DNA from: Rhodothermaceae bacterium
GTDB lineage: Bacteria > Bacteroidota > Rhodothermia > Rhodothermales > Bin80
Direction: 5' to 3'
Assembly: GCA_009841335.1 (NCBI GenBank)
Contig: VXLY01000016.1
Location: forward strand, 1-55,091
Length of the DNA: 55,091 nt
Part shown: piece by piece, positions 21,126 through 55,091 of the stretch
Numbering within the stretch: position 1 is the stretch's first letter
Layout of the letters: each line of letters starts with the position of its first letter
The notes under the pieces: model-generated
The model's database searches: none
Seen by the model: the letters and a program-made list of their open reading frames with translations, nothing else
What the model was told of the DNA's origin: nothing
Program-made: the position numbers and the translations under genes

Positions 21126-21623
21126 ATGGCGATTCCACCTCGCCGCCGAGCACGCTGTGCAGTGCTGCAAGCGCTTTATGCATATGCACTCAGTGGTGAT
21201 TCCCGGTCTCACGTCAATAAGACAGTTCTCTTGCCGCGGCTGCCTCCGCAGGAGGGTGCCATGGATCTGGGAATAGCACTTTTCAGCAAGGTGATAGAAG
21301 AGCATGATGCGCTGGACGAAATAATCGCTACGAATGCAAAAAATTGGGACTTGAAGCGCATTCTCAGGATAGACTTGATCATTCTCCGCATGGCGATTTG
21401 CGAATTTCTGTACTTCAAACAGATCCCTCCCAAAGTGACCATGAACGAGGCTATTGAGCTCGCAAAAATGTTCAGTACTGAAGAAAGCAAGGATTTTGTG
21501 AATGGCGTACTTGATTCGATCGCGTTTAAATTAAGAAAGGAGGGCAGGCTCGTCAAAAGTATAGCAGGTCTTCAAGGCTGGGAGGAAATGGTGCACAGAC
21601 AGAACACTCAGCGGACGAAGTAA
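21126..21623 (+). CDS. nusB: Transcription antitermination factor NusB
   Basis: This encodes 165 residues. The N-terminus RRRARCAVLQALYAYAL and the C-terminal half (LRIDLIILRMAICEFLYF, then KVTMNEAIELAKMFSTE and FVNGVLDSIAFKL) match the all-helical NusB family. NusB binds boxA RNA with NusE (S10) to prevent premature termination of rRNA transcription. A roughly 20-residue tail follows the core. It follows the UspA gene closely and may share its transcript. Confidence 0.92.
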   Translation: MAIPPRRRARCAVLQALYAYALSGDSRSHVNKTVLLPRLPPQEGAMDLGIALFSKVIEEHDALDEIIATNAKNWDLKRILRIDLIILRMAICEFLYFKQIPPKVTMNEAIELAKMFSTEESKDFVNGVLDSIAFKLRKEGRLVKSIAGLQGWEEMVHRQNTQRTK

Positions 21624-21727
21624 GCGACTAGGGTTTTGTGAAGTCATGTGCCCTGGGATCAACTTCGGGAGCACACCCATCTGATCGATCCATATTGATA
21701 TTTGAGAGGTCGGAAAACCGCGTACGA

Positions 21728-30247: not shown

Positions 30248-30321
30248 CGGGGCGTAGCTCAGCCCGGTAGAGCGCTGCGTTTGGGACGCAGAAGTCGTCG
30301 GTTCAAATCCGGCCGCCCCGA
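30248..30321 (+). tRNA. tRNA-Pro(UGG)
   Basis: A 74-nt cloverleaf: acceptor CGGGGCG/CGCCCCG, anticodon stem CTGCG/CGCAG with loop TTTGGGA (anticodon TGG) and a T arm with GTTCAAATC. CCA is not encoded. It is the first of three clustered tRNAs. Confidence 0.93.
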
Positions 30322-30354
30322 CTGGTGCGGATAAATCAGTTCTATAACATACAG

Positions 30355-30628
30355 GCGCCCGTAGCTCAACTGGATAGAGCAGCGGACTTCTGCAAGAAAG
30401 CGGGCCGCCGGCTGGAAACAGACGGCGTGTAAGTGGTCAAATTCGGGGAAGCCTGCGAAGCTTCAGCTTACGGTAATCCCGAGCCAAGCCCCAATGGGGA
30501 AGGTGTAGAGACTAGACGGCCACCACCTTCGTTCAGTCACTGAAAAAGGTGAAGGGATAGTCCGGGGAGTCGGGAAACCGGCACAAACCTGAATCCGCAG
30601 GCTGCAGGTTCGAGTCCTGCCGGGCGTG
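30355..30628 (+). tRNA. tRNA-Arg(UCU), interrupted by a group I intron
   Basis: The exons are 30355-30391 and 30592-30628. Joined, they make a normal cloverleaf: acceptor GCGCCCG/CGGGCGT (G1-U72 wobble), D arm AGCTCAACTGGATAGAGC, anticodon stem GCGGA/TCCGC with loop CTTCTAA, and T arm CAGGTTCGAGTCCTG. The anticodon is TCT, read as Arg. The interruption falls directly after the third anticodon base. The unspliced transcript could not form a functional anticodon arm, so splicing is needed for decoding AGA (and perhaps AGG) codons unless another copy exists in the genome. Confidence 0.9.
30392..30591 (+). ncRNA. Group I (IC3-like) self-splicing intron in tRNA-Arg
   Basis: 200 nt without an ORF. 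The 5' exon ends in U and the intron ends in G, the group I rule. Core elements appear in order: GGGGAAGCCTGCGAAG (P4/P5 side, 30445-30460), GGTAATCCCGAGCCAAGCC (30472-30490), AGAGACTAGACGG (P7 5' strand and P3, about 30507-30519), a P8 hairpin CACCTT/AAGGTG, GGGATAGTCC (P7 3' strand, about 30554-30563) and a P9 hairpin with a GAAA tetraloop (30571-30580). The blocks closely match cyanobacterial tRNA-Leu introns of subgroup IC3. The P1 guide pairing could not be settled by eye; AGAA near the intron start can pair with the exon end UUCU. Confidence 0.88.
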
Positions 30629-30637
30629 CAACCACAG

Positions 30638-30708
30638 GGTGACGTGGCCGAGTGGTTAGGCAGAGGCCTGCAAAGCCTTGTACGGCGGTTCGAATCCGTC
30701 CGTCACCT
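30638..30708 (+). tRNA. tRNA-Cys(GCA)
   Basis: A 71-nt cloverleaf with acceptor GGTGACG/CGTCACC, anticodon loop CTGCAAA (GCA) and T arm GGTTCGAATCC. The discriminator is U73, as expected for Cys. It ends one base before the convergent dnaB stop. Confidence 0.92.
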
Positions 30709-30709
30709 C

Positions 30710-32917
30710 TTACAAAGGAGCCTGTTCCTCATCAGAATCCGTGATGAATTCATCCTCCGGTCTACGATACCGCTCCAGGTTTTCGAAGCGGGCGTAGTCC
30801 TTGAGGAAGGAGAGCTTCACGGTTCCCGTCGGCCCGTTACGGTGTTTGCCGACGATGATTTCCGCAACACCTTCCGTTGGCTCCTTGTTCTTGTCGAACT
30901 CAATTCCGTAGTAAGATGCACGATAGATGAATGCGACGACGTCGGCATCCTGCTCTATGGCGCCGCTTTCCCGCAAGTCGGACAACTGCGGTCGCTTATC
31001 CTTCCGGTCTTCGGCATTCCTGTTCAACTGACTGAGTGCGATCACAGGAATATCCAACTCTTTTGCAAGCCCTTTGAGGGATCGTGAGATGTTTGCAATC
31101 TCCTGTTCGCGATTGTCTTTCGATCGTCCCTGCATAAGCTGCAGGTAGTCAACCAGGACAAGGCCGATGTCATGCTCCGATTTTAGACGGCGGCACTTGG
31201 CACGCAGCTCCAGCACACCGAGTCCAGCGGTGTCATCAATAAAGATTCGGGTATGGGCAAAGGCGTTTGCCGCTCGCACAACGGCGTCGAACTCGCTCTG
31301 ACGCAACTTGCCAGCGCGTGCGGCTTGAGCGTTGACACGGGCCTCTGAGGTTAACAGGCGCTGGGCCAGCTGCCGTGCACTCATTTCCATGGAGAAGATC
31401 GCACAACTGACCGGCCGGTCAGAAGACATTGCCGCGTTACGTGCACAGGCTAACGCAAAGGCAGTATTGTGTACACAAACATCCGACGCAACAAAATTAT
31501 GTGTGTCATCAATGGTCAGGTCAAACACTGGCCGGAGGCCACGTGCTTCAATGTGCGTGATTTCGTCATAAACAATCTGTTCTTTTCCTTCTTCCCGTCG
31601 GCCGGTCCCCATGGGGGTAACGGTCCAATCTCCGGCCGTATGCTGGACGCGGGCCAGAATACCGAACCGCAGCAGCAGATGTGCCAGTTGCCGGGCAAGC
31701 TGGCGCGAGGACACACGGAAGCTACGTTTGATTGCAAGCAGCTGATCAACAAAGCTCTTCAGACAGTCATGATCAAGCGTAAAGGTCCAGCCAGGCAATT
31801 TTTGCAATCCTCGGGATTTTACAAGTTGGCCACGAGCATCCGCCATGGGTCGCATCACTCGGTCGGGGTGCAGAATAGATGCAACGAGTTGCGAGATATG
31901 AGCATCAGGAACGGTTTTCATCCCAAATACCGGAAGCTCACTTGGAACTGCTATTGAACAGCCAGTCGCTAGTTCTCCCAAGGGCTGCCAGCCTCGGGGC
32001 GTGAGAAAAGGATGTGTAAGCGTCGTACTGACGGTACGGCCAAGACGAGTCGTGACCCGATAGACGGGCTTGAGGCCATCATCAACGTACGCAGAAGGCG
32101 TAGTAATGGAAAAGCGGTGATCCGCTCCCAGGGTCAGTAAGCGTGCATGCTGCCGTTCATACAGGTCAGCTATGCGGACCAAGCTCCCGTCAGACTGCAG
32201 GATCGGCGTATCCGCGTCGACACATTTTCCCATGGAAGGTCGACCGGCAATGATTACCAGATCTGAGTCCTGCCACCCTCCCGTCAACTCGTCCAGTTCG
32301 CTGAAGCCGCTTGTTATCCCCGTGAGTTTTCCGTCATGTTCAGTAATATTCTGGAGATGTTGGATGGTGTCTCGCACAATGTCCGTCAGGTTTTTCGCCG
32401 AGCGACGCACTTGACTCTCTGAGATTGAAAAGAGATCCGTTTCAGCCTGGTCAAGAAGTTCAAAGGCATCTGTTGCCGGATCATATGCCTCCGTGATACG
32501 CTTACTCATCGTTTCGATGAGCTTTCGCAATAGCGCTTTCTGGCCCAGGATACGCGCGTGATGCTCGGTGTTTGCCGAAGTGGCAACCCGCTCAGTGAGT
32601 TCGTCTAGATACGGCAAACCGCCGACGACATCCAAATGTTGGGATTTCTTCAATTGCTCCGAAACCGTGATGAGGTCCGTGGGCTGTCCCTTTTCAAAAA
32701 GCTCGCAGATCGCCTGATATATTCGCGTGTGCTTGGGCAGATAAAACGAGTCTGGAGGCAAGATTGCGGATGCAATATTTACGGCCTCAGAATCAATCAA
32801 CATCGCACCTAGGACATACTGTTCGATGTCCAAAGCTTGGGGTGGAACGCGCCCGGAATAGTCCTTCAGGTTCTGAACCAGTACAGGGCCTTGAGGGCGA
32901 GAGGCTTCGTATTGCAT
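30710..32917 (-). CDS. dnaB: Replicative DNA helicase DnaB with an intein
   Basis: It encodes 735 residues from ATG 32917 (a TTG start at 32947 is less likely). Removing a 253-residue intein leaves a normal 482-residue helicase: N-terminal DnaB domain (ALDIEQYVLGAMLIDSEAV), linker, and RecA-like domain with the P-loop GRPSMGK-T, Walker B LVLVDYLQLM and ALSQLNRNAEDR. DnaB is the hexameric fork helicase loaded with DnaC or DnaA help. The intein splits the P-loop between Lys and Thr, so the protein is inactive until spliced. It follows a uracil-DNA glycosylase gene upstream and converges with tRNA-Cys. Confidence 0.95.
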   Translation of the reverse strand: MQYEASRPQGPVLVQNLKDYSGRVPPQALDIEQYVLGAMLIDSEAVNIASAILPPDSFYLPKHTRIYQAICELFEKGQPTDLITVSEQLKKSQHLDVVGGLPYLDELTERVATSANTEHHARILGQKALLRKLIETMSKRITEAYDPATDAFELLDQAETDLFSISESQVRRSAKNLTDIVRDTIQHLQNITEHDGKLTGITSGFSELDELTGGWQDSDLVIIAGRPSMGKCVDADTPILQSDGSLVRIADLYERQHARLLTLGADHRFSITTPSAYVDDGLKPVYRVTTRLGRTVSTTLTHPFLTPRGWQPLGELATGCSIAVPSELPVFGMKTVPDAHISQLVASILHPDRVMRPMADARGQLVKSRGLQKLPGWTFTLDHDCLKSFVDQLLAIKRSFRVSSRQLARQLAHLLLRFGILARVQHTAGDWTVTPMGTGRREEGKEQIVYDEITHIEARGLRPVFDLTIDDTHNFVASDVCVHNTAFALACARNAAMSSDRPVSCAIFSMEMSARQLAQRLLTSEARVNAQAARAGKLRQSEFDAVVRAANAFAHTRIFIDDTAGLGVLELRAKCRRLKSEHDIGLVLVDYLQLMQGRSKDNREQEIANISRSLKGLAKELDIPVIALSQLNRNAEDRKDKRPQLSDLRESGAIEQDADVVAFIYRASYYGIEFDKNKEPTEGVAEIIVGKHRNGPTGTVKLSFLKDYARFENLERYRRPEDEFITDSDEEQAPL
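31466..32224 (-). mobile_element. Intein in the DnaB P-loop, with degenerate endonuclease region
   Basis: It encodes 253 residues from Cys (TGT at 32222-32224) to Asn (AAT at 31466-31468), followed by extein Thr. Splicing blocks are visible: CVDADTPIL (block A), TLTHPFLTPRGW (block B with T-x-x-H), VFDLTIDDTHNFVA (block F) and VCVHN (block G with the penultimate His). The central 100 residues contain LAHLLLRFGILARV, which resembles the region after the second motif of LAGLIDADG-type inteins, but no intact pair of endonuclease motifs is evident. It is probably splicing-competent and homing-defective. Confidence 0.93.
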
Positions 32918-32933
32918 AGAGAATAAGGGGAGA

Positions 32934-33662
32934 CTATTGTGGGGCAATGCCCGGTGTATAAAGTTTTTGCAAGCGCTGCAGATCTTCCCAGGCTGGCCGC
33001 TTCCAGCGCTGATTACGCAGGAGGGCTGCAGGATGGTACGTCACAAGCAGCGGGATGCCATGATAATCATGAATCTTTCCTCGAAGTGAACCCAATGTGC
33101 CCTTGGAGTTAAGCAATGTTTGCCCAGCAACCTTGCCCAGGCAAAGTATGAATTTGGGCTGGATAAGGGCCATCTGTTTGTACAGCACCGGCAAATGGGC
33201 AGCTATTTCCTGCGGCTCAGGGTTCCGGTTTCCGGGAGGTCTGGATTTCAGAATATTTGCAATAAAAAGTTCTTCCCGCGAGAGTCCGATAGCAGCAATC
33301 ATCTTATCCAGAAGTTTTCCCGCCCTGCCGACAAAAGGCCTGCCCAGACGATCTTCGTCTGCACCGGGAGCCTCGCCCACGAGCATTATCCGCGCCCGAG
33401 GATTGCCCTCGCCAAAGACGGCATTAGTGCGCGCAGCATCAATGGGAATCAAGGTAACGTTCGCCACATATTGTCGGAGATCTTCCAAGGACGTGAGCGC
33501 TCGTACAGGATTCTCACTGGGGATCAGATTTGTTATCCTCTTGGCAAAGCCATTGAGAGGTTCAACCGGCACAAAAGGACCGTGCATTTCTGCCTCAGCA
33601 TACAGGCAGTCCCTCAAGCCTCGAAGCAACTCAACCATGGTCGTGCAAAAATTGCGGCGCAT
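32934..33662 (-). CDS. Family 4-like uracil-DNA glycosylase
   Basis: This encodes 242 residues; ATG 33638 is an alternative start. Uracil-DNA glycosylase motifs are clear: GEAPGADEDRLGRPFVGRAG (about residue 95), LKSRPPGNRNPEP (about 140) and TYHPAALLR (about 215). It removes uracil from DNA to start base excision repair. The four cysteines that hold the [4Fe-4S] cluster in family 4 enzymes are missing: the N-terminal CxxC region reads VTLIPIDAART, the LKC position is Ser, and the fourth is replaced by His in IAAHLPVL. The gene is directly upstream of dnaB and overlaps the region of its possible TTG start. Confidence 0.88.
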   Translation of the reverse strand: MRRNFCTTMVELLRGLRDCLYAEAEMHGPFVPVEPLNGFAKRITNLIPSENPVRALTSLEDLRQYVANVTLIPIDAARTNAVFGEGNPRARIMLVGEAPGADEDRLGRPFVGRAGKLLDKMIAAIGLSREELFIANILKSRPPGNRNPEPQEIAAHLPVLYKQMALIQPKFILCLGKVAGQTLLNSKGTLGSLRGKIHDYHGIPLLVTYHPAALLRNQRWKRPAWEDLQRLQKLYTPGIAPQ

Positions 33663-55039: not shown

Positions 55040-55091
55040 TGGGCGGTGAGGGATTTGAACCCCCGGCCTCCTGCTTGTAAGGCAGGCGCTC
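55040..55091 (-). tRNA. tRNA-Val(UAC), truncated by the window edge
   Basis: On the minus strand, the 3' 52 nt are present: anticodon stem CCTGC/GCAGG with loop CTTACAA (anticodon TAC), T arm GGGGGTTCAAATCCC and acceptor 3' strand ACCGCCC. The 5' acceptor and D arm lie beyond the window. Confidence 0.85.

Follow-up and report, generated by a model that had tools for sequence, protein, structure and literature searches.

An interrupted tRNA-Arg(UCU) gene

The window, i.e., the whole 55,091-nt stretch of DNA that was analysed, contains on its forward strand a tRNA-Arg(UCU) gene (30355-30628) whose anticodon loop is interrupted by a 200-nt group I intron located between U36 and A37 (Table 1). 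The acceptor stem begins with GCGCCCG at 30355 and pairs with CGGGCGT ending at 30627, followed by the discriminator base G73 at 30628. ARAGORN in its default mode, with introns off, reported no tRNA-Arg(UCU) gene at 30355-30628; with the intron search switched on, it called a tRNA-Arg(tct) gene with identical boundaries and placed the 200-nt intron at position 38, and the joined exons folded as a full tRNA-Arg(tct). The arginine identity bases A20 and C35 were both present. The first-pass annotation, made from the sequence, had proposed a tRNA-Arg(UCU) host in a Bacteroidota-related genome, interrupted directly after the third anticodon base by an ORF-less insertion of 200 nt, with the exon ending in U and the insertion in G. 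These particulars were confirmed, and the locus is a real tRNA gene that had been read correctly, down to its outer ends: the insertion measures exactly 200 nt without a long reading frame, follows U36, and ends in G, and the genome belongs to the order Rhodothermales.

The interrupted gene is the middle member of a conserved Pro-Arg-Cys tRNA cluster. The cluster is adjoined by a DnaB helicase gene (30710-32947, reverse strand) that contains an intein splicing domain, in which LAGLIDADG was weakly matched; an intein and a group I intron thus stand side by side in the window. Another tRNA, at the end of the window (55040-55091, reverse strand), abuts a scaffold gap with a run of N just beyond it (L094), and the whole-genome tRNA match there therefore corresponds to two half genes joined across the gap.

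Table 1. Features of the tRNA-Arg(UCU) locus and its intron, in window coordinates
Feature	Coordinates	Strand	Evidence
tRNA-Pro(UGG), upstream neighbour	30248..30322	+	ARAGORN; order kept in intronless relatives
5' exon, tRNA-Arg(UCU) positions 1-36	30355..30391	+	Sequence; ARAGORN intron search; 15-genome alignment
Anticodon UCU at 5' exon end	30389-30391	+	
Group I intron, 200 nt, without ORF, last base omega-G	30392..30591	+	RF00028; intronless orthologues; ARAGORN
P1 continuation	30392-30393 with 30400-30401	+	Flanking pair GC/GU/AU covaries, 14 genomes
Guide GGG, P1 partner of anticodon UCU (U34.G, C35-G, U36.G)	30402..30404	+	Invariant UCU/GGG; guide-anticodon match, four anticodons
P2 hairpin (30407..30426)	30407-30414 with 30419-30426; GAAA loop 30415-30418	+	6/8 pairs changed on both sides
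P3, enclosing P4, P5 and P6 (30433..30523)	30433-30438 with 30518-30523	+	One U-A to C-G double change
P4	30443-30448 with 30477-30482	+	Alignment, hand-drawn structure
P5	30451-30453 with 30472-30474	+	First pair alternates G.U / A.C
P6	30483-30485 with 30502-30504	+	Alignment, hand-drawn structure
P7, guanosine-binding helix (30510..30562)	30510-30514 (GACUA) with 30558-30562 (UAGUC)	+	Invariant, 14 genomes
P8 hairpin base (30524..30551)	30524-30529 with 30546-30551	+	83% of cells paired
P9.0 (with P9, 30566..30589)	30566-30567 with 30588-30589	+	100% of cells paired
P9	30569-30573 with 30578-30582; GAAA loop 30574-30577	+	100% of cells paired
3' exon, tRNA-Arg(UCU) positions 37-73, CCA not encoded	30592..30628	+	Sequence; 15-genome alignment; ARAGORN
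tRNA-Cys(GCA), downstream neighbour	30638..30709	+	ARAGORN; order kept in intronless relatives

Group I identity and conserved structure

The group I assignment of the first-pass annotation was upheld by the Rfam Intron_gpI covariance model (RF00028). The full model (1-253) matched with 59.5 bits, above its gathering score of 50; the E-value was 1.3e-12 for the whole window and 9.2e-15 when the sub-region alone was scanned. The match spans 30380-30584 and not the intron edges, which were set from the exons. Only this general group I model of Rfam matched. The minimum-energy folding of the intron was unexceptional (z of -1.23, not significant); folding energy alone is weak evidence, while the comparative evidence is strong.

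For the latter, 14 homologues were aligned, and a hand-drawn structure based on the sequence in the window, comprising the tRNA stems and P1-P9, was scored on them. Pairing was kept in 97.2% of 980 cells across the 14 homologues and fell to 29-43% when the partners were slid by 1-3 columns. Changes on both sides were found in 10 pairs (shuffled mean 5.5), amounting to 31 cells (shuffled mean 12.3), and none of 500 shuffles scored as high as the real alignment, with the caveat that one of the 14 sequences had itself served as the basis of the structure and that related sequences beat shuffles more easily. The gap over the shuffles, together with six doubly changed pairs in P2, leaves little doubt about the structure. 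Double changes were observed in P1, P2, P3, and P8 among the 14 genomes. P4, P6, and P7 were invariant and consequently provide little evidence by themselves, and P8 scored lowest because the alignment slips there.

The landmarks of the fold are a P7 pseudoknotted with P3, a U.G pair at the 5' splice site, the omega-G, and GAAA loops in L2 and L9. The splice-site U.G, the terminal G, and the L9 GAAA were invariant in the 14 homologues, and P5 carries CCU...UACGG or UAUGG, variants that by eye resemble the classic 11-nt receptor in which the L9 GAAA would dock. P1 with the exon consists of three pairs, two of which are G.U. An alternative P1, in which the intron GAAAG would pair with CUUCU, would include a mismatched C.A and be better suited to tRNA-Lys. 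It was discarded for lack of conservation of GAAAG; conserved instead are the GGG before P2 and, next to it, the covarying G-C/G-U/A-U pair.

Intronless orthologues and distribution

The joined 74-nt exons served as the query against 114 Rhodothermales genomes. Intronless tRNA-Arg(UCU) genes were found in other families (G093, G043, and G021), with as much as 99% identity along all 74 bases; all 30 fetched genes had the anticodon TCT, and nearly all lay within the Pro-Arg-Cys tRNA cluster. The same search returned no full-length intronless match in the window's family. Since intronless orthologues occupy the same locus elsewhere and none was detected in this family, the insert is a clean addition. 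Reading of the flanks located the 36/37 intron in 14 of the 16 genomes of the family; the remaining two (G001 and G010) yielded no such gene, with or without the intron. Two genomes of a second Rhodothermales family (G026 and G037) also carried it. The Arg-UCU host of the first-pass annotation stood; the intron proved to be a family-wide trait rather than an isolated case, and the same genome holds two further tRNA introns.

More broadly, the group I model matched in 26 of 59 relatives, and the 3'-end signature of the Arg intron type was confined to the two families among 394 genomes of the phylum. The exon-intron start is common to metagenome-assembled Rhodothermales records, such as Rhodothermaceae bacterium bin80. 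The tRNA-Arg(UCU) gene has a second insertion site, as group I introns were found at its 34/35 position in another Bacteroidota family (G444, L137) and on a viral contig (L185).

Group I introns were encountered in several other settings. Other Bacteroidota families have them in tRNA-Asn(GUU) (L095, L130, and L131), with an HNH-like reading frame recognized by eye in L130, and other Rhodothermales have them in 23S rRNA (L024, L026, L027, and L044). In IMG/VR, at least 120 contigs classed as viral contained this intron core (L158-L237 and L319-L331), many of them within tRNA genes (Leu, CAU, Asn, Thr, and Arg); a 2014 review described the phage introns known then as all lying in protein-coding genes (PMC3984707). 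BLAST of phage and plasmid collections returned fragments only, and the plasmid matches examined were tRNA introns of other hosts. The conjugative Escherichia coli plasmid NZ_CP023816.1 has an unannotated tRNA-Leu(UAA)-like gene interrupted by a group I intron (L280, locus 510-701), whose core also matches Salmonella, Klebsiella, and Acinetobacter plasmids, and a large plasmid of Tritonibacter mobilis has one in an apparent tRNA-Thr(UGU) gene (L279, locus 532-751).

Pairing of the guide triplet with the anticodon

The GGG of the Arg intron lies directly before P2, in the place of the guide GUG in tRNA-Ile(CAU) introns. Among 36/37 introns from viral contigs and Bacteroidota, the anticodon/guide combinations were UCU/GGG (n=14, all from Rhodothermales), CAU/GUG (n=9), GUU/GAC (n=2), and UGU/GCA (n=1), and in all four types the first guide base G faces U36, forming the wobble pair at the splice site. 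Further matching triplets occur by chance in some introns, so the guide was identified by its place before P2 and not by the match alone. All hosts have U36, which fits tRNAs reading ANN codons; from four anticodons, we infer that this intron type may be limited to such tRNAs. The match between anticodon and guide would provide a simple, testable rule for which tRNAs the intron type can inhabit, namely those with anticodons ending in U36.

Phylogeny of the introns

The Arg(UCU) introns formed one clade in both trees (support of 96/92 with 70 introns and 100/100 with 61 introns), with the second Rhodothermales family at its base. This position would fit inheritance with the host, and transfer would also be compatible with it. 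The three tRNA introns of this genome (Arg, fMet, and Lys) fell into separate clades. Introns at 34/35 and 35/36 were placed apart from those at 36/37 (92/74); a single 36/37 clade was not rejected (AU p of 0.28) but was not strongly supported, in a tree without an authentic Azoarcus sequence. The trees include several long branches, which leaves their deep order unsure.

These results bear on the likeness to cyanobacterial tRNA-Leu IC3 introns that had been noted from the order of the core blocks. The ribozyme class and the block order held. The nearest type, however, appears to be the 36/37 intron of tRNA-Ile(CAU), as in Azoarcus, and not the cyanobacterial 34/35 intron of tRNA-Leu, because position, guide place, and 3' end agree with the former and the 34/35 and 35/36 introns group apart. 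That the Arg intron is instead a direct relative of the cyanobacterial or plastid tRNA-Leu(UAA) intron is very unlikely: its core motifs recur in tRNA-Leu introns of proteobacterial and phage records, but the site is 36/37 rather than 34/35, the guide place and 3' end are those of the tRNA-Ile(CAU) type, and the Leu, fMet, Lys, and other 34/35 introns stand apart from the Arg clade.

Other interrupted tRNA genes in the genome

Two further tRNA genes of this genome were interrupted. The sole detected initiator tRNA-fMet gene contains a group I intron (L002; contig 36, ~21350-21690), which also occurs in most family members. The sole detected tRNA-Lys gene, tRNA-Lys(UUU), contains a divergent 345-nt group I intron at 34/35 (L003; contig 92, ~64970-65320), which scored 25.7 bits, below the Rfam gathering score, and is conserved in 11 family members. 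Further genes for Arg(UCU), Lys, or the initiator were absent from the tRNA matches of this genome and from those of a single-contig relative of 3,198,349 bases (G011), whose sole detected Lys(UUU) and fMet genes are likewise interrupted by group I introns; the two CAU tRNAs are the elongator Met and Ile2. The list for the single-contig relative has no Ile(GAU) or Ala(UGC), which usually lie in rRNA operons, and is therefore not fully complete. The data support the view that the sole detected Arg(UCU), Lys(UUU), and fMet genes each hold an unrelated group I intron. If this is true, translation initiation and lysine decoding would pass entirely through ribozyme splicing. Arginine is a known competitor for the group I guanosine site, and one could speculate, as a long shot, that a fixed dependence of three essential tRNA genes on ribozymes acts as a control point responding to, e.g., GTP or arginine.

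Proposed splicing and its alternatives

We consider it almost certain that the sole detected tRNA-Arg(UCU) gene holds a group I ribozyme, putatively IC3-like and of the Azoarcus tRNA-Ile type, that should excise itself. By analogy with established group I chemistry, both transesterifications would occur in the cell. The anticodon U34-C35-U36 would pair with the intron GGG into P1, whose U36.G wobble would mark the 5' splice site; the guanosine occupying P7 would attack after U36, and the freed U36 end would then attack after the omega-G (G200), joining U36 to A37 and releasing the 200-nt RNA. This would yield an ordinary tRNA-Arg(UCU) for reading AGA codons. The intron was probably inherited with the tRNA gene through the Rhodothermales family. 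An intron-free copy was sought, and no further tRNA-Arg(UCU) was present among the tRNA matches of this genome (a draft of 121 contigs, 97.5% complete). AGA is used in 41 of 7047 codons (16 ORFs picked by length). With no second UCU gene detected and AGA in use, splicing should be required.

It is very unlikely that the locus is a tRNA pseudogene with a dead intron and that another gene supplies tRNA-Arg(UCU). A draft genome could hold a second, intronless gene; nevertheless, no intact UCU gene was found among the tRNA matches here or in the single-contig 3.2-Mb relative, and 14 genomes have kept both the exons and the core, with compensatory changes. Removal by a protein tRNA-splicing endonuclease and ligase in the style of archaea and eukaryotes, or membership of another intron class, can practically be dismissed: although the insert lies one base before the canonical 37/38 site of protein-spliced tRNA introns (PMC4033280), it has a clear group I score and a pseudoknotted core with the U.G pair and omega-G, and the protein pathway is not known from bacteria (PMC4033280).

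Comparison with known systems

Bacterial tRNA group I introns have been reviewed for cyanobacteria and for alpha- and beta-proteobacteria (PMC4033280). The tRNAscan-SE 2.0 paper, which states that the program was not designed for group I tRNA introns, lists 36 genomes with fMet or Ile2 genes missing due to such introns and reports that Acidovorax and Burkholderia have an Azoarcus-type intron in tRNA-Ile2 (PMC8450103). Cyanobacterial tRNA-Arg, Gly, and Lys have been reported to hold group I introns of 22-49 nt (PMC5733544); we rejected these as a precedent, being too short for a ribozyme core. In the searchable, non-subscription literature, neither Rhodothermales nor any bacterial tRNA-Arg(UCU) is named as a carrier of a group I intron; within that scope, which leaves priority unproven, the expectation that an Arg-UCU host would extend the known set is borne out. 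What appears to be new is the host tRNA-Arg(UCU) and the Rhodothermales lineage; the kind of ribozyme is known. Three interrupted sole-copy tRNA genes are an unusual load, and these three essential tRNAs of a Bacteroidota family would, owing to the interruptions, be missed by routine annotation.

Small new ribozymes near one of the best-studied group I models are thus available in this lineage. The IC3 intron of the Azoarcus sp. BH72 pre-tRNA-Ile(CAU) is ~200 nt long and ORF-less, inserted between U36 and A37, with GAAA in L2 and L9. The tRNA-Ile(CAU) introns share with the Arg intron the 36/37 site, a guide just before P2, and the 3' end CACAAACC.G followed across the splice site by AATC (from CAU-type loci). 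The Arg intron differs from that of Azoarcus in its host tRNA-Arg(UCU), its guide GGG instead of GUG, and its phylum, Bacteroidota. Reinhold-Hurek and Shub (1992, cited in PMC4033280) reportedly described a group I intron in the tRNA-Arg(CCU) of Agrobacterium; compared by description only, it likewise occupies an arginine tRNA with an anticodon ending in U36, but the anticodon is CCU rather than UCU and the gene is a different one. The cyanobacterial initiator tRNA-fMet intron is of the same class, and the initiator tRNA is interrupted in this genome too, but host and position differ from those of the Arg intron. Introns of tRNA-Leu share the ribozyme class, an anticodon-loop site, and a similar core with the Arg intron but differ in their 34/35 site (from Rhodothermales and viral contigs) and their separate place in the tree; the tRNA-Leu(UAA) gene of this genome is itself without an intron.
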